DNA of 36,596 bases from Ruminococcus sp. (GTDB lineage Bacteria; Bacillota; Clostridia; Oscillospirales; Acutalibacteraceae). The DNA lies in assembly GCA_017405065.1 (NCBI GenBank), contig JAFRBD010000022.1:1-36596 (forward strand), given 5' to 3'. The notes under the pieces are model-generated. The model saw only the letters and a list, made by a program, of their open reading frames with translations. It was not told the origin of the DNA and ran no database searches. The stretch's first letter is position 1, and each line of letters starts with the position of its first letter. This document shows, piece by piece, positions 4,611 through 16,976 of the stretch. The translations under genes and the position numbers were made by a program.

Positions 4611-4639
4611 AAGTTGCATACTTTTATGCAACTTTTTTT
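4611..4639 (+). terminator. Perfect palindrome with T-run between spoVAF and the phage island
   Basis: AAGTTGCATA (4611-4620), loop CTTT and TATGCAACTT (4625-4634) are followed by TTTTT on the plus strand. It is a textbook plus-strand terminator, yet no plus-strand gene lies upstream since 3123. It may insulate the phage block, attenuate a short leader, or serve as an operator palindrome in the spoVAF 5' region. Confidence 0.6.
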
Positions 4640-4698
4640 ATTATCTCGGCATAGGTGGGAGATGAATGATCGTACAACGGTCTTGATCTTCCGTGCCG

Positions 4699-4745: not shown

Positions 4746-5231
4746 GTGAAACCGAGAGAAAAAGAATTCTGCCGTTTGATGACGGTATATGCCGATCCGA
4801 TCAGAGCGGCGCGGGAAGCGGGCTACAAGGAGCCGGAAAAGGCATGGTCAGAGCTTTCCGCGCGCGAGGAGATCGTCGGCGAGATCCGCCGCCGCTGCGA
4901 GAATATCCGCTCGATATACGAGAGTACCGCTGTATGCGGATTGTATCGGCTCGCCTACGGCGGCGTGAGCGACGCGCTGACGTTCATCAATCGGGAGATC
5001 ATTCGCGAGGAGGATCTCAGAGCGCTCGACCTGAGAAATGTCTCGGAGATCAAGCGTACCGACAAGGGCGTCGAGATCAAGTTCTGTGACAGGATGAAGG
5101 CGGTCGACAAGCTGCAGGAGGTACTGGGCGTTTCTTCCGAAAACAAGGGAGGCTCGGGGCTTCTTGACGCGATCCTGCTGTCAGCCGAGGCGCTCGGCAC
5201 TCGCTCGGGAAGTGAGACCGATGCAGTATAA
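4746..5231 (+). CDS. Phage terminase small subunit
   Basis: First gene of the structural island. Small terminases recognise phage DNA and load the packaging motor. The opening PREKEFCRLMTVYADPIRAAREAGY is the helix-turn-helix segment of the Terminase_2/XtmA-type family: 'EFCRLM...AAREAGY' matches the usual 'FVdeYl.d.NataAaiRAGYs'. The remainder is helical, and the length (161) is normal. The start is GTG at 4746, preceded by GGAAGG. Its end overlaps the large subunit by 11 bases, suggesting coupled translation. Confidence 0.8.
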   Translation: MKPREKEFCRLMTVYADPIRAAREAGYKEPEKAWSELSAREEIVGEIRRRCENIRSIYESTAVCGLYRLAYGGVSDALTFINREIIREEDLRALDLRNVSEIKRTDKGVEIKFCDRMKAVDKLQEVLGVSSENKGGSGLLDAILLSAEALGTRSGSETDAV

Positions 5232-6471
5232 GCCGCTGTCGGCAAAACAGCTTCGGGCGATGTTCTGGTGGGCGAAGGGCTCGGGGACCGAGCATTATGA
5301 CGCCGTGATCTGCGACGGCGCCGTGCGCTCCGGCAAGACCTTTTCGCTTTCTCTGTCCTTTGTGATGTGGGCGAGCTTATGCTTTGACGGCGCGCTGCTG
5401 GGCTTTTGCGGCAAGACGATCTCGGCGCTGCGGCGCAATGTGATCATCCCCCTCCTGCCTTGTCTGAAGGAGCTCGGCTTTGATGTGCGTGAAAGCGTCA
5501 GCAACAACCGCCTGCATATCCGTTTCGGGAATCGTGAGAACACTTTCTTTCTCTTTTCCGGAAAGGATGAAGGCTCCGCTTCGCTGATTCAGGGCGTTAC
5601 GCTGTCAGGGATCCTGTTCGACGAGGTCGCGCTGATGCCGCGCTCCTTTGTGGAACAGGCGCTGGCGCGTTGCTCGGTCGGCGGTTCGCGGTTCTTCTTC
5701 AACTGTAATCCCGAGTACCCCTCACACTGGTTTTATCGGGAATGGATCAAAAACAGGGAGCAGAAAAACGCCTTGTACATCCATTTCCGCATGCGGGACA
5801 ACCCTTCTCTGAGCGAGAAAATGCTCAGGCGGTATGAGAGTCTGTATACGGGCGCTTTTTATCGCCGCTTTGTCGAGGGAGAATGGGTGAGCGTCTCGGG
5901 CGCTGTCTATCCCTTTATGGGCGACAGCGGTATGTTCATCCCGCCTCCCGACGCCGTCTGTGAGGAATACTGTGTCTCCTGCGATTACGGCACGGTGAAT
6001 CCTACGTCGATGGGTCTGTGGGGGCGCAGGGGCGGTACGTGGTATCGCCTTCGCGAGAGTTACTACGACGCGCGAAAGGTCGGCAAGAGCAGAACGGATG
6101 AGGAACACTATGATTCTTTAAAAGAATTATTGGGTGAGCTTTTGCCGACTGCGGTGATCGTCGATCCGTCAGCCGCGAGCTTTATCGAGGTGATCGAGCG
6201 GCACGGGCTGTATCCTGTCGTCAGAGCGGACAACAACGTCATCGACGGGATCCGCAAAACGAGTCAGGCACTCAGAGACGGGGAGATCGTGATCTGCAGC
6301 ACCTGCACCGACGCCATCCGTGAGTTTTCGCTTTATCGCTGGGACGAAAACAAGCCGATGGACACGGTGATCAAGCGCGACGATCACGCGATGGATGACA
6401 TACGGTATTTTGTCAGTTATATAAAGGCGAACGGAGAAAACCTCGGTTACGCTTTTATCGAACGAGAATGA
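5221..6471 (+). CDS. Phage terminase large subunit (PBSX-like)
   Basis: ATP-driven DNA packaging motor with a headful or site nuclease. In 416 residues, the ATPase domain shows Walker A GAVRSGKT (33-40) and Walker B ILFDE (131-135). The C-terminal nuclease domain shows the acidic clusters CDYG (Asp255), VDPS (Asp315) and DHAMDD (388-393). All key residues look intact, so packaging activity is plausible. The start is the ATG at 5221 overlapping the small subunit; an upstream ATG at 5164 would lie deep inside that gene. Its stop overlaps a 30-codon ORF through ATGA. Confidence 0.92.
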   Translation: MQYKPLSAKQLRAMFWWAKGSGTEHYDAVICDGAVRSGKTFSLSLSFVMWASLCFDGALLGFCGKTISALRRNVIIPLLPCLKELGFDVRESVSNNRLHIRFGNRENTFFLFSGKDEGSASLIQGVTLSGILFDEVALMPRSFVEQALARCSVGGSRFFFNCNPEYPSHWFYREWIKNREQKNALYIHFRMRDNPSLSEKMLRRYESLYTGAFYRRFVEGEWVSVSGAVYPFMGDSGMFIPPPDAVCEEYCVSCDYGTVNPTSMGLWGRRGGTWYRLRESYYDARKVGKSRTDEEHYDSLKELLGELLPTAVIVDPSAASFIEVIERHGLYPVVRADNNVIDGIRKTSQALRDGEIVICSTCTDAIREFSLYRWDENKPMDTVIKRDDHAMDDIRYFVSYIKANGENLGYAFIERE

Positions 6472-6560
6472 CCGCTGTTTACTATGATGCAAAGGCGATC
6501 ATCAAACAGTTTTTTCATGATGTTAAGAAAAAGGTTTCTCGTTATCACCCGATCAATTGA
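6468..6560 (+). CDS. Possible 30-residue basic small protein
   Basis: ATG at 6468 overlaps the terminase stop as ATGA, a coupling arrangement used repeatedly in this island. The predicted peptide is Lys/His-rich with an aromatic-hydrophobic helix (AKAIIKQFFHDVKKKV). No family is recognised. It has no separate ribosome site. It may be a real micro-gene of the island or the decayed start of a lost gene, because the next 185 bases hold no ORF before the portal. Confidence 0.35.
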   Translation: MTAVYYDAKAIIKQFFHDVKKKVSRYHPIN

Positions 6561-6602
6561 TACAATACCTCTCGTCGTTTGCTGTACTTGTTGAGGCGGT
6601 CA

Positions 6603-6705
6603 GGCACGACCGCTCTCGTACTCGTGCCGCAGCTCCTCCTCTCCCCAAAAAGCAGGGGCTTTTCGGGGACTCCGGAGGGCGACAGCTCCCTTTCCCAAAG
6701 GAGCC
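6603..6705. repeat. Three successive hairpins between terminase and portal, one a family A repeat
   Basis: Hairpin 1 pairs GGCACGA (6603-6609) with TCGTGCC (6622-6628). Hairpin 2 pairs CCCC-AAAAGC with GCTTTT-GGGG (6643-6668). Hairpin 3 (about 6684-6705) is the minus-orientation core of repeat family A, of the type seen downstream at 31107, 32735 and 33843. None is followed by a good T-run. This is the only sizeable untranslated stretch inside the phage block. Confidence 0.5.
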
Positions 6706-6745
6706 TTTCTTAACAAATGAAATAATTATTGACAGGAGGTTAATC

Positions 6746-7879
6746 TTGCGATTATTTTCGAAAAGAAAAAATCCCCATGTCCCTCAGGTACAGACCTGTA
6801 CTGCGGCGGACAGGGGCATTATCCCTCCCTTACACATCCCGGACGATCCTGTCGAGTTCCGGCTGTATCGTGAACTCAGAATGAAAGTTCCCGTGATCGA
6901 TGCGGCGATCATGAAGCTGGTGCGTCTGCTCGGTGAGTTCAGGATCGTCTGCGCGGATGAGCCGTCGCAGAAAGCGATGGATGATTTTGTATCGCGTGTG
7001 CCGGTCGGCGGCGTTTCGACGGGACTGTATACCTTTATCTGTTCCTACTTCGATCAGCTGCTGACCTGCGGTAAGGCGGTGGGTGAGATCGCCGTTTATG
7101 AGGACGGCGGGATCGCCGCGCTGTATAACGCTCCGGCAGACGCGGTGACGCTTCGCGCAGGGGAAAACCCCGTGGATGCGAGGATGGTTCACAGCGGGAT
7201 CGGTATGAAGGAGATCGAACGTCCCGAACTTCTTTGCGTGACCTTGCTGAATCCTCAGCCGGGTACTTTTCGCGGGACGTCGATTCTCAGCGGTCTGCCC
7301 TTTGTCAGCGATCTGCTGACGAAGATCTTCCGCTGTGTGGGTCAGAATTTTGAGCGCGCGGGCAACGTGCGCTTTGCCGTGACCTACAACCCTCCCGCAG
7401 GCGCGGGCGCGGTCAACGCGCGTCAGCGTGTGAAGGAGATCGCCGAGCAGTGGAGCAGCGCGATGCGCGACAAGAACAGAGTATGCGACTTTGTGTCCGT
7501 CGGCGACGTCAATATCCGCGCGATCGGCGCGGACAGCCAGATCCTTGACTGCGACGTTCCGATCCGCCATGTGCTCGAGCAGATCGTGGCGAAGCTGAGT
7601 GTTCCGCCGTTTCTGCTGGGACTGTCGTGGTCCTCGACCGAGCGGATGTCCTCTCAGCAGGCGGATATCCTGACCTCGGAGCTGGAGCATTACCGCTTTT
7701 TGCTCACCCCCGTGATCGAAAAGATCGCGCGGGTGTTTCTGAAGGCGGAGCGGCTCGATCCGCGTGTGACGGTCGAATGGAGCAACATCAGCTTACAGGA
7801 TGAAACGGAGCTTGCCGCAGCGCGTCTGGATAATGCGCGCGCGGCGCAGCTCGAGCGGAGCATGGAGGTGAAAGAATGA
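6746..7879 (+). CDS. Phage portal protein
   Basis: Dodecameric portal at the capsid vertex through which DNA enters and leaves. The 377-residue product sits between terminase and protease as expected. It carries the portal-like C-terminal segment LSVPPFLLGLSWSSTERMSS followed by a helical stretch SELEHYRFLLTPVIEKIARVF, typical of HK97/XkdE-type portals. The start chosen is TTG at 6746, six bases after a perfect AGGAGG (6734-6739). The ORF is open back to 6557, but that extension runs through hairpins and a dispersed repeat. Its stop overlaps the next ATG. Confidence 0.85.
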   Translation: MRLFSKRKNPHVPQVQTCTAADRGIIPPLHIPDDPVEFRLYRELRMKVPVIDAAIMKLVRLLGEFRIVCADEPSQKAMDDFVSRVPVGGVSTGLYTFICSYFDQLLTCGKAVGEIAVYEDGGIAALYNAPADAVTLRAGENPVDARMVHSGIGMKEIERPELLCVTLLNPQPGTFRGTSILSGLPFVSDLLTKIFRCVGQNFERAGNVRFAVTYNPPAGAGAVNARQRVKEIAEQWSSAMRDKNRVCDFVSVGDVNIRAIGADSQILDCDVPIRHVLEQIVAKLSVPPFLLGLSWSSTERMSSQQADILTSELEHYRFLLTPVIEKIARVFLKAERLDPRVTVEWSNISLQDETELAAARLDNARAAQLERSMEVKE

Positions 7880-8826
7880 AATACGGACAGGTGATCAAAG
7901 GCGTCAAAGCCAATGACCCGACAGAGGAGATGGCGTTGGTCAACAGCTATTCCCGCCGTGAGCTTTCTGCCGATGAAGTGTATCTCTTTTCGGTCGTGCT
8001 GTGCGATAACGATATCGACCGCGATTATGAACGCTTTACGGTGGAGTCGCTTTTTACGCTCGAAAAGCTCTTTGTCGGCAAAACCGGCATCATCGACCAT
8101 GACCCGACCGCCAAGAATCAGAAGGCGCGGATCATTTCCTGTAAGGTCGAGAGCGTGGAAGGGAAAAAAACCGCGAACGGCGATCAGCTCTTTCAACTGA
8201 CGGCGCGCGCCTATATGCGCCGCACACAGGGGAACGCCGAGCTGATCGAGGCGATCGAGGCGGGTATCGTCAAGGAGGTTTCCGTGGGCTGCAGCGTAGG
8301 GCATACGGTGTGCTCGATCTGCCGCAACGATATCCACTCTCCGCTGTGCAGCCATCAAAAGGGCAGAGTATATGACGCCGAGCTTTGCTTCGGCGAACTG
8401 TGCGAGCCGAAGGACGCATATGAATTCAGCTTTGTCGCAGTGCCGGCTCAGCGAGCGGCAGGCGTAACGAAAGAATATAAGGAGAAGGATATGAACGATA
8501 TTTGTAAATCTCTTACGGGAGATCGTGACGTCACATTGACCAAGGATGAGGCGATGAGCCTCAAGGCATATATCGAGCGTCTGGAGAGTGAAGGCGAATA
8601 CGCGAAGGCGTACCGCGAGGAGCTGACCGACCGGCTCAGAACCGCTCTCAGAGAAAAGGGCGTGGAGCTTGATTATGTCGTAGAGAATTGTATTCTCAAT
8701 AAGCTCAGCGTACATGAAACGCAGTCGCTCCTGAAGGCGCTCAGCCGCAGGGAGCGCAAGGTGATCACACAGCTGGGTGAAGCCAAAGCCGATGATATTG
8801 TCGGCAATACCGAATTTACGATTTAA
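7876..8826 (+). CDS. Prohead protease with C-terminal scaffold region
   Basis: Processes the capsid shell during head assembly. In 316 residues, the N-terminal part (about 1-195) has a herpesvirus-fold protease layout: candidate His75 in GIIDHDP and nucleophile Ser136 in IVKEVSVG. A short cysteine insertion follows the serine: C146-x2-C149-x8-C158-x-H160, a zinc-knuckle-like pattern. The remainder (206-316) is charged and helical, as expected for a scaffold. The gene is coupled to the portal through ATGA. A strong internal ribosome site before Met206 suggests the scaffold is also made separately. XkdF-type protease is the nearest functional analogue. Confidence 0.75.
   Translation: MKYGQVIKGVKANDPTEEMALVNSYSRRELSADEVYLFSVVLCDNDIDRDYERFTVESLFTLEKLFVGKTGIIDHDPTAKNQKARIISCKVESVEGKKTANGDQLFQLTARAYMRRTQGNAELIEAIEAGIVKEVSVGCSVGHTVCSICRNDIHSPLCSHQKGRVYDAELCFGELCEPKDAYEFSFVAVPAQRAAGVTKEYKEKDMNDICKSLTGDRDVTLTKDEAMSLKAYIERLESEGEYAKAYREELTDRLRTALREKGVELDYVVENCILNKLSVHETQSLLKALSRRERKVITQLGEAKADDIVGNTEFTI
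8491..8826 (+). CDS. Probable internally initiated scaffold protein
   Basis: Same frame as the protease gene. An AAGGAG at 8479-8484 lies six bases before an in-frame ATG at 8491, an arrangement as good as the genuine start sites nearby. The 111-residue product is helical and highly charged (AYIERLESEGEYAKAYREEL), with no protease residues. Nested scaffold starts inside protease genes are established in lambda-like phages (C/Nu3). That this site is used is inference. Confidence 0.45.
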   Translation: MNDICKSLTGDRDVTLTKDEAMSLKAYIERLESEGEYAKAYREELTDRLRTALREKGVELDYVVENCILNKLSVHETQSLLKALSRRERKVITQLGEAKADDIVGNTEFTI

Positions 8827-8837
8827 CGGAGGTAACT

Positions 8838-9167
8838 ATGGAAATCAAGTTTAACGGATATATGGAAAATGTTCTGACGATGGAATGTACAAGTACCGTC
8901 AGGGCGGGCGATCTCGTGAAGATGTCCGCGTCCGGCAAGGTGACAAGAGCGTCGGCAAACGATACTTTTATCGGCGTATGTGTCGGCGTTAACGGCAGTT
9001 ATGCCGCAGTACAGCTCAGCGGCTATGTCGAGACGGCAAAATCCGGCACGGTGAACGTCGGCTATAACAAGCTCGCCGCAGCGACTTCCGGCGTCAAGAC
9101 CGCCGAGAGCGGTATTGACAGACTGGTCATTTACAGCGACGATACCACCGTCGGCTTTATTCTGTAA
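8838..9167 (+). CDS. Putative capsid decoration protein
   Basis: 109-residue beta-rich protein between protease and major capsid, the usual site of head-decoration proteins (lambda gpD position, or DUF2190-like). Visible features are short hydrophobic strands and small residues (VRAGDLVKMSASGKVTRA, TFIGVCVGVNGSYAAVQLSG) reminiscent of DUF2190-type sheets. The start at 8838 follows ACGGAGG. No catalytic motif is seen. The identification rests mainly on position and composition. Confidence 0.6.
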   Translation: MEIKFNGYMENVLTMECTSTVRAGDLVKMSASGKVTRASANDTFIGVCVGVNGSYAAVQLSGYVETAKSGTVNVGYNKLAAATSGVKTAESGIDRLVIYSDDTTVGFIL

Positions 9168-9180
9168 GAGGAGGATTATT

Positions 9181-10188
9181 ATGGCAAAATTTGAAACGAT
9201 CAATCTGGAAAAGGGTATGTATCAGACAGGCAGGAGCCTGACCGAGATCCTGGAGGAAATGGATCCCTCCGAGAACTATAAGGGCACCGCGCTGGAGGGT
9301 CTGGACGCGTTCAGCCGTCAGCTCAAGCGTTATGATATCAAGGTGAACGGTAAGGGTTCCGACGCCATCGAGAAGTTCTTTGCGACCTCCAACTCGGCGG
9401 CGCTCTTCCCCGAGTATGTCAGCCGCGCGGTCAACGCCGGCAGAGAAGAAGCGAATCAGCTGGATGATATCGTCGCGACCGTCACCAAGATCGACGGCAT
9501 GGACTATCGTTCCTGCACCTTGAACATGACCGATGAAGACAAGAGCCTCAAGCGTGTCGCGGAGGGCGCTTTCATCCCGACCACCGAGATCAGGACAAAC
9601 GATAATCTTGTCCGCCTATACAAGCGCGGCAGAATGCTGGCGGCAAGCTACGAGGCGCTCCGCTTCCAGCGGATCGATCTCTTTACCGTGACGCTCAAGC
9701 AGATCGGCGCGTATATCGCCCGCTCCCAGATGGCTGACGCGGTAGACGTGATCCTGAACGGCGACGGCAACAACAACGCCTGCGGCAGCGTCAGTCCCGC
9801 TTCTGCCGGCAGCCTGAGCTATGCCGATCTGATCAGCATGTGGAGCGCGCTCTCTCCCTTTGAGCTGAACACCGTGCTGGCTTCTACCAACGCTATGACA
9901 GCCCTGCTGACCATGAGCGAGATGAAGGACGCGGTAGCGGGTCTGAACTTCCAGGGCAGCGGCAAGATGATCACGCCTCTGGGCGCAAATCTGATCCATA
10001 CCACCGCACTGAGCGGCAGCAATATCATCGGTCTGGACAAGACCTGTGCGCTCGAGATGGTAGTTGCGGGCGACGTGGCTGTCGACTATGACAAGCTCAT
10101 CGATCGTCAGCTCGGAAAGGCGTCGATCAGCTGTATCGCAGGCTTTGCGAAGATCTGCAGCGGCGCGGCAAAGAAACTGACTTACTAA
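9181..10188 (+). CDS. Phage major capsid protein (HK97-fold candidate)
   Basis: 335-residue main shell protein, the largest product between protease and connectors. It begins with a helical arm (TGRSLTEILEEMDPSENYKGTALEGLDAFSRQL) that could be a delta-domain cut by the protease. It contains capsid-like stretches SAALFPEYVSRAV, KRGRMLAASYEALRFQ and YDKLIDRQLGKASISC. The start at 9181 follows AGAGGAGG. The upstream in-frame reading from 9115 lies inside the decoration gene and is rejected. Confidence 0.82.
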   Translation: MAKFETINLEKGMYQTGRSLTEILEEMDPSENYKGTALEGLDAFSRQLKRYDIKVNGKGSDAIEKFFATSNSAALFPEYVSRAVNAGREEANQLDDIVATVTKIDGMDYRSCTLNMTDEDKSLKRVAEGAFIPTTEIRTNDNLVRLYKRGRMLAASYEALRFQRIDLFTVTLKQIGAYIARSQMADAVDVILNGDGNNNACGSVSPASAGSLSYADLISMWSALSPFELNTVLASTNAMTALLTMSEMKDAVAGLNFQGSGKMITPLGANLIHTTALSGSNIIGLDKTCALEMVVAGDVAVDYDKLIDRQLGKASISCIAGFAKICSGAAKKLTY

Positions 10189-10202
10189 GGAGGTCGTGAC
10201 AC

Positions 10203-10559
10203 TTGCGCTTAAACAAGATCATTGAACGCTTTACGCTGGTGTCGGGCTTTGAAATGAAGGATGTGTCGCGTTATCTGCCGATCATCGGGGACTGTAAGGC
10301 TTATTTTGAGAGCCTGCTCCCTGAGCTGAACGAAAACGATCTGCGCCGGGCGGAATATGCCTGCGCGGTATACGCGTTTTACCGTATCAGCCAACTGGGG
10401 AGGCCGGAAGACCTGAAGTCGTTCAAGGTAGGCGATGTGCAGATGAACGTAGAGGCGATCGGCGAGGCGGCGAAAAAGCTGTGGGAGGCTGAGCGTGAGA
10501 ATATATCCGATATTCTGGATATCAGCGGCGGCTTTGCTTTCAGGGGCGTATGCGTATGA
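10203..10559 (+). CDS. Head-tail connector (gp6/adaptor-like)
   Basis: 118-residue helical protein directly after the major capsid gene, the normal place of the adaptor that docks on the portal. It begins with TTG at 10203 behind AAGGAGG. The helices (LRRAEYACAVYAFYRISQL, AIGEAAKKLWEAER) fit gp6-like adaptors. Its 3' end overlaps the next gene by ten bases. Confidence 0.6.
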   Translation: MRLNKIIERFTLVSGFEMKDVSRYLPIIGDCKAYFESLLPELNENDLRRAEYACAVYAFYRISQLGRPEDLKSFKVGDVQMNVEAIGEAAKKLWEAERENISDILDISGGFAFRGVCV

Positions 10560-10924
10560 AGATGACAAAGTATTTCAACCGCGCGCTCAGGAAATTCGGC
10601 AACACCGTGTATATCTGCCGCGACGGCAGGACAGAGGTCTGTATGGCCTTTGTCCAGCCGCTCAGGCGGCGGCACAGGCTGTATATCAATGACAGATACA
10701 TTCCCGCGGGTTATTTTGACAACCGCTATCTGCTCTATATCGGACCCGGAGACCGTCCGCTCAGGGACGGTATGCGCGTCGTTTGTAAAGGAACGGCATA
10801 TACGGTGGTGACGGAAGAGATCTTCGCGGCGCATGACGAGGATATCTATGTATGGGCGATCCTGATGCCCGTCAGCAAGGGTAAGGAGGATTATTATGAC
10901 CTCATCGATAGAGAACAGGATTGA
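10550..10924 (+). CDS. Probable head-closure or minor connector protein
   Basis: 124-residue basic protein rich in beta-type segments (NTVYICRDGRTEVCMAFVQP, RYLLYIGPGDRPL, GMRVVCKGTAYTVV). It sits second after the capsid gene, where head-closure proteins (SPP1 gp16 or XkdH position) occur. Two ATGs are possible, at 10550 and 10556. The gene overlaps both neighbours, which suggests coupled translation. No motif proves the function. Confidence 0.5.
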   Translation: MRMKMTKYFNRALRKFGNTVYICRDGRTEVCMAFVQPLRRRHRLYINDRYIPAGYFDNRYLLYIGPGDRPLRDGMRVVCKGTAYTVVTEEIFAAHDEDIYVWAILMPVSKGKEDYYDLIDREQD

Positions 10925-11333
10925 CGAATGGATCGGCCGCGTGAAGCAGCGCGGCGCGATGCGCGCCTTTTCTTTTATTCCCGGTTATCCGGCACATAAA
11001 ACCCCCAATCCGATCACAAAATATACGGTAGCCGTGACCGACAGTACGCAGAAGGTCAGCCGCTTTTTTATCGGTAACCGTATCGGTACCGATTTATCGG
11101 GACGGCTGTATGAGGTCGAGCTGACGCTGAGAGTCTACGCGCCCGAGAGAAGCTCAGGCTCGTCGTTGCTGCGCGCAAGCGCGCTTTTGATGGACGCGTT
11201 CGAGGCGGAGGATAACGACAGAGCGATCTATTCTCTTTCTTTGTCCGGGATCGGCTTTGACACCGCATCCCGCACCGAGTATCGCGACGTGGTCGCGCGG
11301 TTGGATTTTGTTCAAAAGGAGGCGGCGGCATGA
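10896..11333 (+). CDS. Probable tail terminator or completion protein
   Basis: 145-residue protein, third after the capsid gene, where tail-completion proteins (gpU/XkdJ-like position) are found. It shows an alpha/beta pattern with a central LYEVELTLRVYAPERSSGSSLLRASALLMDAF, the usual 'strand then helix' of gpU-type proteins. The start at 10896 has AAGGAGG upstream inside the preceding gene. It overlaps the next gene by four bases (ATGA). In contractile-tailed relatives the sheath gene would follow here; it does not. Confidence 0.5.
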   Translation: MTSSIENRIDEWIGRVKQRGAMRAFSFIPGYPAHKTPNPITKYTVAVTDSTQKVSRFFIGNRIGTDLSGRLYEVELTLRVYAPERSSGSSLLRASALLMDAFEAEDNDRAIYSLSLSGIGFDTASRTEYRDVVARLDFVQKEAAA

Positions 11334-11710
11334 ACGAACTGAGGATCATCAGGGGAACCGACGTCAGCCTTTATATCAATGACGCGCCGCTGTTTGGCGT
11401 CATCGCGTTCAGCGCGGAGGAAAAGCCGCTTTTCCATGAGGTGTACGAATACCTGTGCGTCAAGCCGTGCGAGCGGATCCCGCAGGGGACGGAATATCAT
11501 ATCCTGATCGGAATGATGTCGCTGTTCGATCATCAGCTTCCTGCGGATGAAGCGTTCACCTTGCGGGTGATCGACGGAAACGTCGCGTATTGCTATAAGA
11601 ATTGTCGTGTGACAGATCGCAGAACGAAAGCAGAAGGCAATCGTATGGCGACTCAGGAGTTCGCGATCAAGGCGGATCAAATGGAAAAGCAGGTGACAGG
11701 AAATGAATGA
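11330..11710 (+). CDS. Tail-tube-like protein
   Basis: 126-residue beta-rich protein. The opening GTDVSLYINDAPLFGVIAFSAEEK resembles XkdM-type inner tubes ('...GRLFLDGEEMAHIKTFEANVEK...'), and the length fits tubes of that class. It stands in the tube position but directly after the completion protein, with no sheath gene between them. It could instead be a hub or adaptor of related fold. Its end overlaps the next small ORF by eight bases. Confidence 0.5.
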   Translation: MNELRIIRGTDVSLYINDAPLFGVIAFSAEEKPLFHEVYEYLCVKPCERIPQGTEYHILIGMMSLFDHQLPADEAFTLRVIDGNVAYCYKNCRVTDRRTKAEGNRMATQEFAIKADQMEKQVTGNE

Positions 11711-11828
11711 GAACGCAAATTTGCAGGAGATCATCCTTGACAGCGAGCAGCTCTCGAGGGAGTTGGAGCGCGACGCGCGCCGATACAACAAAGCATTTAC
11801 GGAAGAAGAGGAGGTCAGGCTGATATGA
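11703..11828 (+). CDS. 41-residue helical ORF in the tape-measure position
   Basis: ATG at 11703 overlaps the stop of the tube-like gene, and its stop overlaps the next ATG (ATGA at 11825). The ORF is thus embedded in a coupled chain and accounts exactly for the otherwise empty gap. The product is acidic and probably one long amphipathic helix (LDSEQLSRELERDARRY). In contractile-tail clusters this slot holds the tail chaperones and the tape measure, usually hundreds of residues. No homology is recognised. It may be a stub remaining from that gene or a minimal length ruler. Confidence 0.6.
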   Translation: MNENANLQEIILDSEQLSRELERDARRYNKAFTEEEEVRLI

Positions 11829-12346
11829 GATTCGCACCGATGCGTTTTTATGGGATGAGTCTGCGCCATAATCCCGAAAAGCTCAGCATCAGCGGCAGAG
11901 AGCAGGTAAAAGAATATCGTTATCCTTGCTGTGATGCGGACAGCATGAGCCTCGGCACAGAGCTGCGGCATATCGCCGGTGAGGGCGAATTCTGCGGCGC
12001 GGATTGCCTCGCCCAATATCAGGCTTTGGAAAAACTGCAGACCAGATCCCAAAAAGCAAAATTGGTTCTGCCGCATATGCAGCCGATGTACGCGTATCTC
12101 AAGGAGCTCGATCTGACGGCAAAGCCGCTTGATCAGGTACTCTCTTATCGCTTTTTGTTTGTGGAAGCGCAGAGTCCGCGTCCGGAGGTTCATGGAACGG
12201 AATGTTATCTGACGGCGTCGGAGAGCGAGAGCTTATGGGATATCGCTTATGTTTACCATGTGCCGATCGAACGTCTGACGGCGCTGAATCCGCAGATCCC
12301 TTATATCGATGATCTGAGCGAGGGAGAGAGGGTCAGGATATGTTGA
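11825..12346 (+). CDS. LysM-containing tail hub protein (XkdP/gp53-like)
   Basis: 173-residue protein. The C-terminus (about 125-173) is a LysM-type repeat: SESLWDIAYVYHVPIERLTALNP followed by DLSEGERVRI. In phage tails a LysM domain marks the hub protein just after the tape measure (XkdP). The N-terminal region has several Cys (YPCCDAD, EFCGADC) and no recognised domain. It overlaps the next gene by seven bases. This gene and its successors keep the XkdP-Q-R-S-T-U order. Confidence 0.75.
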   Translation: MRFAPMRFYGMSLRHNPEKLSISGREQVKEYRYPCCDADSMSLGTELRHIAGEGEFCGADCLAQYQALEKLQTRSQKAKLVLPHMQPMYAYLKELDLTAKPLDQVLSYRFLFVEAQSPRPEVHGTECYLTASESESLWDIAYVYHVPIERLTALNPQIPYIDDLSEGERVRIC

Positions 12347-13281
12347 AATGTCTGTTACGGGACGTCAACGGAGAAGAACGTATTTTCCCGGGCTTGCTCT
12401 CGCTGCAGGTGAATGTCGATGAGGGAGTACCGGCGGATTCGCTTTACGCTTCATTCTCATATACGGCGACGGAACAGCTTGTCGGGATAACGCTTTATGA
12501 CGACGATACGCCGCTGTTTGCAGGCGTGGTGGACGAAGAGGAGCGTTATCGCGACGCGACGGGAGAATACCTCAGGATTTCCGCGCGCTCTTTGGCGGCG
12601 CATTTGCTGGATAATGAGGCGATGCCCTGCTCGTATGATCACCCGTCGCTCGGGCTGATCTGCGAACGATATGTGAACCCTTACGGTATTTCGCTGAGCA
12701 GCCGTGACGACGCCGTGTACTTTGGCGAGCAGAACGTGACGAAAGGTTCTTCCTGCTGGAGAGTACTGAAGAACTTTTGTACGGCATGTTACTCCGCGGT
12801 CCCGCGCATCAGTTCGGTCGGCGTTTTGTATCCCAAGGGCATCCGGAAAACCGAAAGGATCCTTTTCGGGAAGGAAGGCGTCCGTTTCACCTCGATCCGC
12901 GAGGTGCGAAAACGGTGTGAAGAGATCTCGACAGTGTATGTCAAAGCGTCGAACACAGGAACCTATTCGCTCCCGGTCGAAAACCCGGGCGCGACGGAAC
13001 GCGGCGTCAGAAGGGTACGGTATCTGAACGCCGTGCTTCCCGAAAGTCCGATGCGGTGTGCTGACGCCATGATCAAAAACAGTGACAAAAAATCGTACGA
13101 GTTACACCTGGAATGTCCGTCCTGTCTGCTCGGAAAGGAAGGCTGCCGGGCAGCGATCAAGGATACGTCGTTCAAAGATCGGAACGATCTTTATATCAGC
13201 GCCGTACATTATCGGATGACACAGGACGGAGAAAGCAGCAGCATTACACTCAAGAGGAGGCAGGATGATGTGGATCAATGA
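12340..13281 (+). CDS. Baseplate hub protein (XkdQ/gpD-like)
   Basis: 313-residue central hub on which the spike sits. It shows the gpD/XkdQ arrangement: an initial beta domain with LYDDDTPLFAGVVDEEERYRD, the segment YLRISARSLAAHLLDNEA, a LysM-like middle (PYGISL) and a C-terminal GDPxL-type strand set. Length is close to XkdQ. The start overlaps the preceding gene and the end overlaps the spike gene by 17 bases. Confidence 0.75.
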   Translation: MLKCLLRDVNGEERIFPGLLSLQVNVDEGVPADSLYASFSYTATEQLVGITLYDDDTPLFAGVVDEEERYRDATGEYLRISARSLAAHLLDNEAMPCSYDHPSLGLICERYVNPYGISLSSRDDAVYFGEQNVTKGSSCWRVLKNFCTACYSAVPRISSVGVLYPKGIRKTERILFGKEGVRFTSIREVRKRCEEISTVYVKASNTGTYSLPVENPGATERGVRRVRYLNAVLPESPMRCADAMIKNSDKKSYELHLECPSCLLGKEGCRAAIKDTSFKDRNDLYISAVHYRMTQDGESSSITLKRRQDDVDQ

Positions 13282-13606
13282 ATATATGACGGAACAATCA
13301 CGCAAAAGGGACGTCGCGACCGTGGGCGAAGTAATGACAGCCAATAACGGTCGTGTCGCTGTGGGATCGACCAAAAACTATGCAGCGCTGCCGATGATCG
13401 CGCCCGCAGGTATCGCGTACGTACCGGTGGCGGGCGCTTCTACGATGGTGATGGAAGGCGCGGGTTCAGCGGTATGTCTGGGCGTGATCGTCGCGCCTCC
13501 CGAACAGCTGGAAGCAGGAGAGCTGATGCTTTATTCAGCGGGCGGCGCCAGCATCGTACTGAAAAACAACGGAAAAGTGCTGATCAACGGCAGGGAGGTA
13601 TCCTGA
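13265..13606 (+). CDS. Baseplate spike protein (gpV/XkdR-like)
   Basis: 113-residue puncturing tip. An OB-fold-like part (VATVGEVMTANNGRVAVGS to CLGVIVAPPEQ) is followed by the short beta-helix usual for phage spikes: ELMLYSAGGASIVLKNNGK then VLINGREV. Two adjacent ATGs at 13265 and 13268 follow GAGGAGG; either may be used. The stop overlaps the next ATG (TGATG). A complete spike argues against random decay of the baseplate module. Confidence 0.75.
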   Translation: MMWINEYMTEQSRKRDVATVGEVMTANNGRVAVGSTKNYAALPMIAPAGIAYVPVAGASTMVMEGAGSAVCLGVIVAPPEQLEAGELMLYSAGGASIVLKNNGKVLINGREVS

Positions 13607-13956
13607 TGGACGTTATGATATCTGACGGCGATATCGCTATGGTGGCGTCGGGCGATTACCGGTATATCACCGGTATCGAAGAGGCGGTACAGCGTGTACG
13701 GATCTCTGCGCTGACGTACAAAGGCGATTTTGTCTTTGACAGAGAATTGGGAACGGATTACAGCGGACTGTGTTCCGATGACAGCATGCTGTGTGAAAAA
13801 CTGGAGCTGCTGCTCAAAGAAAGCTGTGCCGATATCCATGATACGACCGTCGAGGTGATCTCCTGTGACAGCGACAGCCTGATCGCGGTTTTAAAGGTCG
13901 TTTTCAAAAATCGCGAAACAACTACGGAGGTGGATCTATCTGGAATCATACAATGA
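13606..13956 (+). CDS. Baseplate wedge protein (gp25/XkdS-like)
   Basis: 116-residue lysozyme-like gp25/gpW family wedge component. Family features are the opening MISDGDIAMVASGDYRYITGIEEAVQRVRISA and TYKGDFVFDRELGTDY ('G.f..d..lG' block). It starts at 13606 in TGATG with GGGAGG upstream. A longer in-frame reading from 13474 lies inside the spike gene and is rejected. In contractile systems gp25 nucleates the sheath, and no sheath gene is present here. Confidence 0.75.
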   Translation: MDVMISDGDIAMVASGDYRYITGIEEAVQRVRISALTYKGDFVFDRELGTDYSGLCSDDSMLCEKLELLLKESCADIHDTTVEVISCDSDSLIAVLKVVFKNRETTTEVDLSGIIQ

Positions 13957-13960
13957 GATA

Positions 13961-14998
13961 TTGAACCGAATGCTTGATACATACGAGGGAGAAAGCGGAT
14001 TCCGTCCCGCGAATGAGTCCGATATCATGCTCAGACTGCGTGTGCTGGCGGGCGAGATCTATCGGGAGCGCGTGTATGCGCAGTACATCATGCGCCAGAT
14101 GTTTCCCGCTACCGCGACGGGAGAGTATCTGGACGCACACGCTGAGCAGCGCGGCCTGAGCCGCAAAAACGGTACGGTTGCCTCGGGACACGTGATCTTT
14201 CTCACGGCTTCTTCCGATCATGGAAACATTCTGATCCCTGCGGGTACGCAGCTGTGTACCAATGATGGTCAGCTGCGATTTACCACTGACAGCGACGCGA
14301 TCCTCAGCTCGGGATCGCAGTCCGTTACCGCAGGCGCGCACGCGGTGCAGGAAGGAAGCGCGTACAATATCCTTGTCGGAAAAATCGCCGTCATGGTGAC
14401 GCCGATCGCAGGGATCAGCGTTGTCAAGAATAACGAGAGGTTTACAGGCGGTTCGGACAGGGAAAGCGATGAACAGCTTCGCGCAAGAGTGATCGAAAGC
14501 TATCAGACGATCAGCAACGGCGCAAACGCGGCGTATTACCGCTCGGCGGCGATGTCGGTGGACGGCGTCTATTCCGCGTCCGTGATCGGCTGCGCGAGAG
14601 GCGCCGGAACCGTTGACGTTTATGCCTGCGCCCGCGGCGCGGTACTGTCAAATGAAAAGATCGCTGAGATCCAGACCTTATTGAACGAAAAGCGGGAAGT
14701 GAACGTCGACGTCAGAGCGGTCAGCCCTACGGCGATGAATATCAATCTTTATATCCGTCTGACGGTCGCGGAGGGATACGACTTCGATACGGTCGCGGCG
14801 AACGTCCGTGAGGCGGTTGTCGACTATATCAACGGTCTGGGTATCGGCAACGATCTGCGGCTGAGCAAGGTCGGAGAGGTCGTCTATCATATCGAGGGCG
14901 TAGCGGACTATAAGTTTTTGGAAAGCTACGGCTCCGACAGAGAAGTTCCGCTGAATCGATTTGCTAAGGCGAATACCATTACGGTGAGGGATGAATGA
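13961..14998 (+). CDS. Baseplate J family protein (XkdT/gpJ-like)
   Basis: 345-residue wedge protein of the baseplate J family. Recognisable blocks are ATGEYLDAHAEQRGLSRK (the 'G.yLD..a...gl.R' signature), RFTGGSDRESDEQLRARVIESY, and NGANAAYYRSAAMSVDGVYSASVI. The start is uncertain. TTG at 13961 and ATG at 13970 lack a ribosome site. CTG at 13940 lies nine bases after GGAGG (13926-13930) and would add LESYNEI in frame, giving a more family-like N-terminus. Four bases are shared with the next gene's ATG. Confidence 0.85.
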   Translation: MNRMLDTYEGESGFRPANESDIMLRLRVLAGEIYRERVYAQYIMRQMFPATATGEYLDAHAEQRGLSRKNGTVASGHVIFLTASSDHGNILIPAGTQLCTNDGQLRFTTDSDAILSSGSQSVTAGAHAVQEGSAYNILVGKIAVMVTPIAGISVVKNNERFTGGSDRESDEQLRARVIESYQTISNGANAAYYRSAAMSVDGVYSASVIGCARGAGTVDVYACARGAVLSNEKIAEIQTLLNEKREVNVDVRAVSPTAMNINLYIRLTVAEGYDFDTVAANVREAVVDYINGLGIGNDLRLSKVGEVVYHIEGVADYKFLESYGSDREVPLNRFAKANTITVRDE

Positions 14999-15561
14999 TG
15001 ACGGTATCGGAGCGTTTGAATCATGCGCTTTCACCCGTCGGGATCTATACGGCGGGCGCGGATGCGCTGAGTTGGGAGCTTACCGCTTACTCTGTCGAAC
15101 TCGAGCGGCTTTATACGGATCTCGGAGTACTGTTCCGGGAGCGATTTATCACTACGGCTCAGGATATCGGGCTCAAAGCGTATGAAGAACTGTTCGGACC
15201 CGAAAGAACGGATGAAAGCACCGCTGACCGCCGCGAAAAACTCTTGCTGCGCTTGAATCTGGGCGGCGGAGACTTTACGCCTGTGGGGGTCAGAAGGGCG
15301 CTTGACAGCTTTGGTCTGGAATACACGATCAGTGAATTTCCGTCGATCGGAAAGATGACGGTTACCGCGACGACGGATTATTCTCAGGCGCAGCAGGCGT
15401 GGATCAGGCGGGAGGTCGAGAAGATCATTCCCGCACATATCGAGTTTCAGCTGACGTTCAACACGATGACATGGGCACAGTGGGATGCTCTTGACAGAAC
15501 ATTTGCGGCGATCGACGGCGAAGATATGACATGGCGGCAGATCGATAACCGCACACAGTAA
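14995..15561 (+). CDS. Tail protein I/DUF2313 (XkdU-like)
   Basis: 188-residue baseplate protein that links wedges to fibres. It matches the XkdU/DUF2313 pattern: an N-terminal helical part with LSWELTAYSVELERLYTDL and RERFITTAQDIGLKAYEELFG, then a C-terminal alpha/beta part ending with IIPAHIEFQLTF ('P.h....'). Its ATG overlaps the stop of the J protein. It is the last baseplate gene before the fibre. Confidence 0.75.
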   Translation: MMTVSERLNHALSPVGIYTAGADALSWELTAYSVELERLYTDLGVLFRERFITTAQDIGLKAYEELFGPERTDESTADRREKLLLRLNLGGGDFTPVGVRRALDSFGLEYTISEFPSIGKMTVTATTDYSQAQQAWIRREVEKIIPAHIEFQLTFNTMTWAQWDALDRTFAAIDGEDMTWRQIDNRTQ

Positions 15562-15578
15562 AAGAAAGAAGGAAACAG

Positions 15579-16043
15579 ATGGCAACCAGTAATTATACAC
15601 CGAATCTGCACCTGAGCGCGTGGGCGGATTCCGACAGACCCAAACGGGCGGATTTTGTGTCTGATAACAACATCATCGATACGCAGCTCGGCGGTCACGT
15701 CGCGAACAATAACATTCATGTGACGTCACAGGAAAAGGCAAAGATCGCGGAGCCCTTTGTCAGCAGCCTGTATTCAGGCTCCGGCGAGAGTTCGCGTGCG
15801 ATCAATCTGGGCTTTCAGCCGAAGACGGTCTTTGTCTACAAGCGCGGCGTGCCCTTTGTCACGTACAGCGGCGGCGTCAACAACGTCAACGCGGCATGCG
15901 GATTCTACGGTAACGGCGCCAGTGTGGGCATCAGCATCACCTCGAACGGGATAAATGTGTCTCAGTCGGCGCAGGCGTCAGACGGCGTCAAGGTGTGTCT
16001 GAATGAAAGCGGCAGCCAGTATACGATCATCGCGTTCAAGTAG
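15579..16043 (+). CDS. Short tail fibre-like protein
   Basis: 154-residue protein at the end of the island. The N-terminal segment (SNYTPNLHLSAWADSDRPKRADFVSDN) is typical of baseplate-attachment regions in Clostridia phage fibres. It is followed by IHVTSQEKAKIAE and a beta-rich, Gly/Asn/Ser-rich C-terminus that may be the receptor-binding head. It is very short for a fibre. It has its own RBS (AGAAAGAAGG) and ends before a strong hairpin. Confidence 0.6.
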   Translation: MATSNYTPNLHLSAWADSDRPKRADFVSDNNIIDTQLGGHVANNNIHVTSQEKAKIAEPFVSSLYSGSGESSRAINLGFQPKTVFVYKRGVPFVTYSGGVNNVNAACGFYGNGASVGISITSNGINVSQSAQASDGVKVCLNESGSQYTIIAFK

Positions 16044-16127: not shown

Positions 16128-16976
16128 TCAATGCTTTTTTGTCGCACGGCGGGGTATGTATACTTCGTCGGTATCCGCTCGGGAAGAGGTGCGGCGGGAG
16201 TAACCGGGGTTCTCATCCGCGTAGCGGGAGGTTCTTTGACCGGAGCCTGCTTCACGGCGTTCTCTCTGTTCCATACGCGCCGCTTCGGAGCGATAGGGAG
16301 AAGAGCCGCGTCTGCGCTCCATGCGCGCCGCTTCCTTTTTCGCCGCGCTGCGGTGAGCGATGGTCGCGATGATGAAGTAGAGGATGCCTAACGCGGCAAG
16401 CGCCAAAAGCGCATAACCGAGATACAGGATCCAGTCGCCGTTGTCCTGGACTTCCGTATTGGACTTGATCGCCGAGAAATCCGCTACGCCGGTTTTGACG
16501 GTCTTTTCATCCAGCACGATATCGCTCCATTCATTCGGAGCGGCGTCTTCGGCGCTCATGCCCGAGGTGTTGTACAGGGGGGTGTTGGAAGAAACGGAGC
16601 CGACCGCTTCGTTACTGTCCGCGACATTGTAATTGTGGTTGGACGCGTCGCCGTAATACAGCGGATCGGGATCCTCCTCGACATAGTTGTTATAGCCGCT
16701 GTTGTCATATCCGTTGTCATATCCGGAGTCTCCGCCCGACTGGTTATCATTATGGGCGGGTTCTTCGACAGGCGCCGGATCGTTATTGACGGGTTCTTCA
16801 GCAGGAGAAGGGTCGTTGTTGACAGGCGCCGGTTCGTTGTTAGCGGGCTCTTCGACAGCCGGCAGATCACCGACTGCATTTTCTTCACCTACGGCGCTGC
16901 ACGCCAACATCACCGAGGCGGATATCATAAAGACAACCGCCAGAATAAGAGCAATAAATCTAAGTGATTTTTTCAT
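16128..16976 (-). CDS. Single-pass membrane protein with Pro/Asn/Glu-rich ectodomain
   Basis: 282 residues, no recognised family. It has an N-terminal signal (about 1-27, with LACSA that might also serve as a lipobox). A low-complexity extracellular part follows, with repeats of EEPxNNxPAPV (about 42-75), then a Tyr/Asn/Gly-rich stretch (82-108). A membrane helix spans about 182-207, and the tail is Arg/Ser-rich (210-282). The type I layout suggests an envelope anchor with a basic cytosolic tail. It starts 14 bases after the SurA-like gene and is probably co-transcribed with it. Whether it has any link to the neighbouring phage island is unknown. Confidence 0.7.
   Translation of the reverse strand: MKKSLRFIALILAVVFMISASVMLACSAVGEENAVGDLPAVEEPANNEPAPVNNDPSPAEEPVNNDPAPVEEPAHNDNQSGGDSGYDNGYDNSGYNNYVEEDPDPLYYGDASNHNYNVADSNEAVGSVSSNTPLYNTSGMSAEDAAPNEWSDIVLDEKTVKTGVADFSAIKSNTEVQDNGDWILYLGYALLALAALGILYFIIATIAHRSAAKKEAARMERRRGSSPYRSEAARMEQRERREAGSGQRTSRYADENPGYSRRTSSRADTDEVYIPRRATKKH

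Follow-up and report, generated by a model that had tools for sequence, protein, structure and literature searches.

A compact island of phage-type genes, at positions 4746–16043 of a 36,596-nucleotide contig of Ruminococcus sp. (JAFRBD010000022.1, assembly GCA_017405065.1; hereafter the window), is probably the structural locus of a vertically inherited, multi-locus element resembling gene transfer agents (GTAs), with a PBSX/phiCD27-type contractile ancestry and a tail reduced to a stub. We give this reading, which is drawn from sequence comparison, a probability of about 70%. The initial annotation had proposed a head with a baseplate and hardly any tail between them, either GTA-like or a satellite; the lack of a sheath, the presence of a tube gene and of a 41-residue open reading frame (ORF), the conserved flanks, the selection on the genes and their host-congruent divergence agree with the former, and the satellite alternative found no support. 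Judged by its sequence, the island is neither decayed nor a satellite.

Tail tube and ruler position

The island comprises 18 tightly packed genes on the + strand, from the small terminase (TerS) to a short protein in the fibre position, and from the connectors to the spike the longest + strand ORF has 313 residues or less, as had been stated for this stretch. Family-model searches of all island proteins, which the initial annotation had suggested, gave no match to a sheath or tape-measure family, and neither integrase, repressor nor replication genes were detected by them in the cluster, a gene content in keeping with a GTA. The earlier statement that sheath and tape measure are absent therefore holds for the sheath and for a tape measure of ordinary kind, but it had overlooked a tail-tube gene and a 41-residue ORF in the tape-measure position. 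A tail-chaperone gene is likewise missing.

The tube gene (11330–11710, + strand; 126 residues) was recognised by profile comparisons. By hhalign (95.6%, E 1e-8) its product is a homologue of the protein encoded next after the sheath in relatives, and the joint profile of the family matches the PDB entry 8q01_A, ‘Tail tube protein’ (E 5.4e-5), a likeness to contractile phages of the phiCD27/phiCD508 type. The window-side profile alone reaches 8q01_A merely at E 0.27, and no match was found for the sheath-side tube profile, built from three sequences. On these comparisons, a tail-tube gene survives in the island.

The 41-residue ORF (11703–11828, + strand) overlaps both neighbouring genes, the second of which encodes a LysM/XkdP-like baseplate protein (11825–12346, + strand; family matches weak when taken alone), and it ends in RDARRY. 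A C-terminal motif of this type (RDxRRY) recurs in proteins of 95–285 residues in 11 sheath-bearing relatives, and the strict pattern [RKQ]D.RR[YFWH] is present at 45 of 70 loci with LysM, against 50 of 19,067 background ORFs; among 20 of the 25 LysM loci without it, many, though not all, carry a looser version by eye. At the sequence level, the motif links the long and the short ruler-position proteins. If lengths are counted from the start codon furthest upstream, 28 of the 34 sheathless ruler-position ORFs have 25–52 residues and six have 58–93, so that the longest (93 residues) almost reaches the shortest sheath-bearing one (95 residues, L066). Tape measures act as rulers of about 0.15 nm per residue, and 41 residues would thus span about 6 nm. 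In the passages of PMC11948020 that we consulted, the sheath of phiCD508 rises by 39 Å per ring, which would make this span equal to one or two rings of tube.

Tail reduction among relatives

Relatives were collected from named genome contigs (the best 80 of 89 were taken in) and include rumen metagenome-assembled genomes labelled Ruminococcus, as well as Anaeromassilibacillus, Caproiciproducens, Caproicibacter, Acutalibacter and Lawsonibacter. Carriers available in culture are Anaeromassilibacillus senegalensis mt9 and Caproiciproducens galactitolivorans BS-1. The sheath-bearing architecture, seen in some relatives, consists of a sheath of 328–353 residues, a tube, usually a chaperone-like protein, the 95–285-residue protein (with the strict motif at 11 loci) and LysM, and the identity of the sheath is given by PF17482 in L066 (6e-9) and by PF04984 in L100 (1.5e-15). 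The clade of the window has kept the tube, together with an ORF of 40–60 residues; in Anaeromassilibacillus-like loci (L067, L073, L076 and L109) the 582–790 bp from capsid to LysM hold two connectors and a stub, with no recognised tube. A sheath is present in 19 of the 78 determinable loci, all 19 from lineages other than that of the window, and its state changes at least 4 times on the tree of these loci. The distance from the end of the tube gene to the start of LysM follows the same division, being 570–1277 bp in 15 of 16 sheath-bearing loci and 3–155 bp in 42 of 43 sheathless ones, with L094 and L080 as the exceptions. When sheath state was compared with ruler length by a sign test, there were two independent pairs alone, too few to reach significance. 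The island itself carries no frameshift, and the genes missing from it are missing from its close relatives as well; a frameshifted copy beside relatives with intact genes, which the initial annotation had named as a contrary outcome, was not found.

Several loci depart from these layouts. In L075, L077, L081, L085, L091, L092, L103, L110 and L210 head and connector genes are followed by other genes, with no LysM or baseplate gene in the fetched stretch; by analogy with FpGTA, the GTA of Faecalibacterium, their tail module perhaps lies elsewhere. Downstream of the major capsid protein (MCP) gene, L056, L059, L069 and L087 have ORFs of 230–260 residues where connector 3 and tube are separate in other loci, possibly fusions of the two, and Caproiciproducens-like loci have ORFs of 214–248 residues in the connector region.

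A sheath encoded elsewhere in the genome was also considered. PF17482 gave no match in nine draft genomes, a search whose controls were detected in 3 of 14 cases. The tape-measure family PF10145 was matched in three of nine same-genus genomes and in none of the other six, a negative that is the weaker evidence since tape measures are hard to detect by family. The two matches in the source genome (G000), one of them below the cut-off, sit in other prophages, siphophage-like by their neighbouring genes. These two prophages, on contigs C159 and C139 (L314 and L315), have their own tape measures, and one carries holin-like and GH25-like genes by eye.

Distribution, inheritance and selection

A homologue of the MCP occurs in 43 of 48 same-genus genomes (that of the window included), in one copy each, and in 2 of 31 other genomes of the order; none of the 45 matched capsid genes has an internal stop. 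A profile search recovered the MCP from 177 of 300 family genomes (one match in 175, two in the remaining 2), covering 80 of 135 genera, and in 71 of 394 genomes of the order. From its named members, the family would be Acutalibacteraceae-like. Genera of another family of the order have MCPs about 40% identical (G077) and compact islands (L192).

Comparison of the 18 island genes with seven relatives gave dN/dS values of 0.04–0.34 (three tube values were undefined), and 0.04–0.27 for the 41-residue ORF. For the head genes, dS falls in a range overlapping the one for spoVAF (0.40–0.84); for the tail genes it is higher, up to 2.9 and thus near saturation, so that their dN/dS ratios are rough. 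Island distances follow those of the host genes spoVAF (r 0.75–0.93) and prsA (r 0.81–0.90), values that none of 2000 permutations reached, the host reference of spoVAF against prsA being r 0.71. The flanks, whose comparison the initial annotation had proposed, are conserved on both sides within the clade of the window: spoVAF lies upstream of the island in 17 of 18 loci and the downstream genes are kept in 16 of 17 testable loci (L031–L055), the exceptions being L035 and L052. Lineages outside this clade have different island neighbours. By these measures selection on the island is purifying and inheritance is vertical, as in a GTA.

Capsid genes of this kind also appear in virus collections. 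IMG/VR gave 329 matching stretches, and among the best 80 that were kept many are about 10 kb long. Matches were also obtained to 12 ‘phage’ records, of which the 5 close ones (57–67% identity) are unannotated faecal fragments and the other 7 lie below 30%.

A palindromic element shared with dispersed loci

Upstream of terS lies a palindrome, GTTGCATA-N4-TATGCAAC (4613–4632, + strand), presumably part of an operator or promoter, followed by a CATAGGTGG box (4650–4658, + strand) that lies 18 nt past TATGCAA and is a putative -10-like box by position. Among 47 aligned sites, 32 have this spacing of 18, 4 have one of 19, and the other 11 lack the strict box. In the clade of the window the palindrome precedes terS in 20 of 20 testable loci, and several divergent loci carry different inverted repeats there, with a T-tract and a GTGAAAGGAG-like stretch behind them. 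Among 20 genomes searched, the exact 20-mer occurs four times each in G000 and G004, six times in G012 and once in G011; the reversed motif, used as a control, is absent from all 20.

One copy in the source genome precedes, on another contig, an operon that encodes a putative receptor-binding protein (by eye), an r1t holin (PF16945, 3e-12) and a CHAP endolysin (2.5e-12), and the two remaining copies precede a DUF6291 gene and a VapE gene. The initial observation that lysis genes are lacking is thus correct for the island itself, and had missed a holin and an endolysin behind the same promoter-like element. An 18-mer version has 34 exact sites in six genomes, 6 of them at the island (control: 0–1 per genome with one mismatch allowed). 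Phage-type genes follow 24 of the 28 non-island sites: six of the receptor-binding type (one per genome), nine DUF6291, three of fibre type, four for replication, one holin and one XhlA-like gene; the other four sites (L239, L249, L254 and L258) have no assignment. Most assignments were obtained by BLAST against a single scanned reference, those of the receptor-binding, fibre (including L246) and XhlA-like (L247) genes having been made by eye. The 356-residue ‘receptor-binding’ protein has no Pfam match, its sole match being phrog_25888 (unknown function, E 0.004), and a CHAP endolysin homologue follows the receptor-binding-type gene in five of the six genomes.

In five further same-genus genomes a looser core precedes similar kinds of target besides chance matches; looser-pattern matches in L294, L297, L298, L302, L303 and L307 are intragenic or have no assignment. 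In G033 the core stands before an unrelated lysis set composed of XhlA-like, SPP1 holin (3e-26) and GH25 (1.5e-28) genes, both XhlA matches of this study being below the Pfam cut-off. Since the element is shared with the island and lysis genes recur among its targets, including that of G033, we count the lysis cassette as belonging to the system. Dispersed loci for lysis and accessory functions would then stand under the same element as the island, shared control being putative.

Two other explanations of the palindrome were considered. As an intrinsic terminator only, its hairpin (-9.2 to -11.9 kcal/mol, from folding 12 of the 47 sites) and a T-run would fit, but the T-run is missing from some sites where the CATAGGTG box stands at its usual spacing; a promoter or operator is the function that we tentatively prefer from the sequence. 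Nor does the palindrome appear to belong to spoVAF, given that in L049 it is found beside terS although spoVAF is some 1.65 kb distant.

Other genes were observed near copies of the element. In G000, an ECF-sigma-like gene (by eye; L232, 7433–7912) is divergent from the receptor-binding/holin/endolysin operon, and an aroF-like gene takes this place in G004 and G012. An 11.4-kb element in G037 (contig C3; L308, 7053–18486), lying at a tRNA-Met gene between 52-bp direct repeats, encodes integrase-like, XRE-like repressor and excisionase-like helix-turn-helix proteins (the three by eye) and a primase-helicase (D5_N), with no capsid gene seen, and has a palindromic element of the same type at 10040, before its replication genes. 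L309 is a second integrase-like/primase element with a palindromic site, in which no repeats were found.

Gene content of the island

The head genes open with TerS (4746–5231; PF03592, 6e-7) and the large terminase TerL (5221–6471; phrog_2, 1e-47), all island genes listed here being on the + strand. The portal gene (6746–7879; phrog_30703, 1e-113) takes its start from the gene call and from comparison with relatives of 377 residues, the ORF itself opening at 6557. It is followed by a protein in the head protease/scaffold position (7876–8826; phrog_16951, ‘unknown function’, 1e-83; phrog_4523, 5e-5), a small head protein (8838–9167; phrog_4588, 5e-13) and the MCP (9181–10188; phrog_3922, 3e-96). 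Three head-tail connectors, at the adaptor (10203–10559; phrog_71 merely at E 0.25), stopper (10556–10924) and tail-terminator (10896–11333) positions, are named by position, since in early HMM rounds connector 2 fell together with the tube families and connector 3 with the fibre.

Beyond LysM, the baseplate genes encode an XkdQ-like hub (12340–13281; phrog_177, 2e-11), an XkdR-like protein named spike from its position (13265–13606; phrog_25991, unknown function, 4e-12), an XkdS-like, gp25-like wedge or sheath initiator (13606–13956; phrog_120, 9e-7; PF10934 merely at E 0.054), the XkdT-like baseplate protein gpJ (13970–14998; PF04865, 4e-51) and an XkdU-like protein of the gpI/Mu gp48 kind (14995–15561; PF10076, 5e-11). 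The last gene (15579–16043), without family match, holds the position of a short fibre. Gene packing and family models thus agree with the initial description of a continuous coupled chain from terminase to fibre, and the hub, gp25-like, gpJ and gpI matches, together with collinearity with phiCD27, with the XkdP-Q-R-S-T-U order proposed for its baseplate part. A membrane-type protein with a low-complexity linker and no family match (16128–16976) adjoins the island in the clade (18 loci).

Comparison with known systems

The order LysM-hub-spike-gp25-J-I is shared with phiCD27. Nine tail and baseplate profiles were compared with this phage: the collinear gene was the best match for eight and the second for the ninth (I, contaminated by J), although the chaperone, spike and gp25 matches are not significant individually. 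In phiCD27 the stretch before LysM holds ORFs of 473 and 157 residues in the sheath and chaperone positions and a tape measure of 1429 residues, whereas the island has the 41-residue ORF alone there. It likewise differs from PBSX-type tailocins or contractile particles, which have a sheath and a tape measure of hundreds of residues, the 41-residue ORF standing in the position of the latter.

FpGTA is the closest described system, resembling the island in published description and layout. According to the passages covered of the paper that describes it (PMC12946183, Nat Commun 2026), FpGTA (loci I and II, CP030777) has a head operon that encodes TerS, TerL, portal and capsid and was found in 12 of 12 Faecalibacterium genomes examined by its authors, and a second, distant operon with baseplate, fibre, receptor-binding protein (RBP), holin and endolysin; its capsids, about 40 nm wide and without an identifiable tail, contain about 9 kb of DNA. 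Host (a Gram-positive gut anaerobe) and layout (a head operon with a distant RBP/holin/endolysin locus, the RBP here recognised by eye) are alike, but the baseplate is encoded together with the head here and in the distant operon in FpGTA. The words ‘sheath’ and ‘tape measure’ are not used in the main text of that paper, and in the passages covered we noticed neither a shared promoter element nor an operon for R. callidus, which is described there as packaging 4.6-kb fragments. CcGTA and RcGTA belong to alphaproteobacteria, unlike the host of the island, and control by GafY, GafZ and IHF is described for that group (PMC11150451); the palindromic element found here is a different one. A literature search over titles and the beginnings of abstracts, with subscription journals and preprints outside its scope, found no other GTA description for Ruminococcaceae, Oscillospiraceae or Acutalibacteraceae, nor, among the papers listed (12 of 52), any of contractile or baseplate GTAs of Clostridia.

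Proposed function and alternative explanations

We propose that, upon activation through the palindromic element, the cell would make small capsids, each joined to a baseplate by a tube of roughly one to two rings, with the 41-residue protein, the last remnant of the ruler, docked in the LysM and hub proteins. Chromosomal DNA would be packed into the capsids by the terminase, cell lysis would be brought about by the holin and endolysin of the distant locus, and the particles would bind kin and deliver DNA without sheath contraction, in the manner of podoviruses. Particle production, packaging and transfer are thus steps that we infer from the genes.

Several observations weigh against this proposal. 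The evidence consists of genes, and TerS matches Terminase_2 over nearly the whole model, so that specific packaging would be possible. The 41-residue ORF is tied to tape measures by position and motif, and the tape measure of phiCD27 lacks a motif of the RDxRRY type. L094 has sheath and tube, yet about 31 bp from tube to LysM and no visible chaperone or ruler, and L091, L092, L110 and L210 have head genes alone within the fetched stretch. The palindromic element is not universal: a looser pattern precedes terS in 23 of 83 loci overall, 5 of another 12 loci from the genus show a TTGCAT-type palindrome (two of the stretches being without a terS call), and the exact 20-mer is absent from 16 of the 20 genomes. 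Some copies of the element stand before genes of replication type (VapE, AAA_25, primase/helicases), and we know of no GTA that needs such genes.

The PBSX-type order of the baseplate genes would also suit a tailocin or PBSX-like killing particle, kept by the host to kill relatives, with its packaged DNA undelivered; in the passages covered, the FpGTA authors raise the same doubt for their system (PMC12946183). No sheath family and almost no ruler are found here, and purifying selection acts on the genes for terminase, portal, the protein in the protease position and capsid. Tailocins of the PBSX type rely on a sheath and a long tube, and we regard a killing particle as unlikely. Somewhat less probable still are particles made for a purpose other than gene transfer (repair, nutrients, a signal or lysis itself): the shared element does tie the island to lysis and putative receptor-binding genes, but selection has preserved homologues of terminase and portal, which implies that DNA is packaged.

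We consider it very unlikely that the head and baseplate parts serve another phage, or that the island is a satellite that borrows a tail. The two siphophage-like prophages of the same genome, so called from their gene neighbours, could act as partners in such an arrangement, but the island is single-copy, has clade-conserved flanks, diverges with its host and is present in 80 of 135 genera, and six of nine same-genus genomes searched have no PF10145 tape measure; PICI-like satellites have an integrase and a variable insertion site, of which the island has neither, its flanks being judged within the clade of the window. That the island is a decaying prophage on its way out, as the genes missing relative to phiCD27-type phages might suggest, is hardly credible in view of the 45 capsid genes without internal stops, the low dN/dS values and a reduced gene set that is the same over deep divergence, with at least four changes of sheath state on the tree.

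A wider version of the GTA-like reading is tentative and, in our view, doubtful as a whole. It supposes a dispersed GTA regulon across the family, read in the genus of the window by one palindrome, with a tail whittled down stepwise, from ruler-position proteins of 95–285 residues with a sheath, through 25–93 residues without, to no recognised tube in some lineages; parasites of the regulon, such as the 11.4-kb element of G037, would behave as if timed to GTA production.

Implications

On our reading, relatives of the island would form a natural series from contractile tail to stub, in which sheath, chaperone and ruler are lost together and the baseplate, often with the tube, stays. The tape-measure rule could be tested here at its lower limit, by asking if a ruler of 41 residues is still a ruler. 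Islands of this kind occur in public phage and provirus collections, and virome counts may include host genes. If our reading is true, GTA-like elements would be widespread in this rumen and gut family (177 of 300 genomes), well beyond Faecalibacterium, and a DNA signature would point to their further loci, such as the lysis genes.

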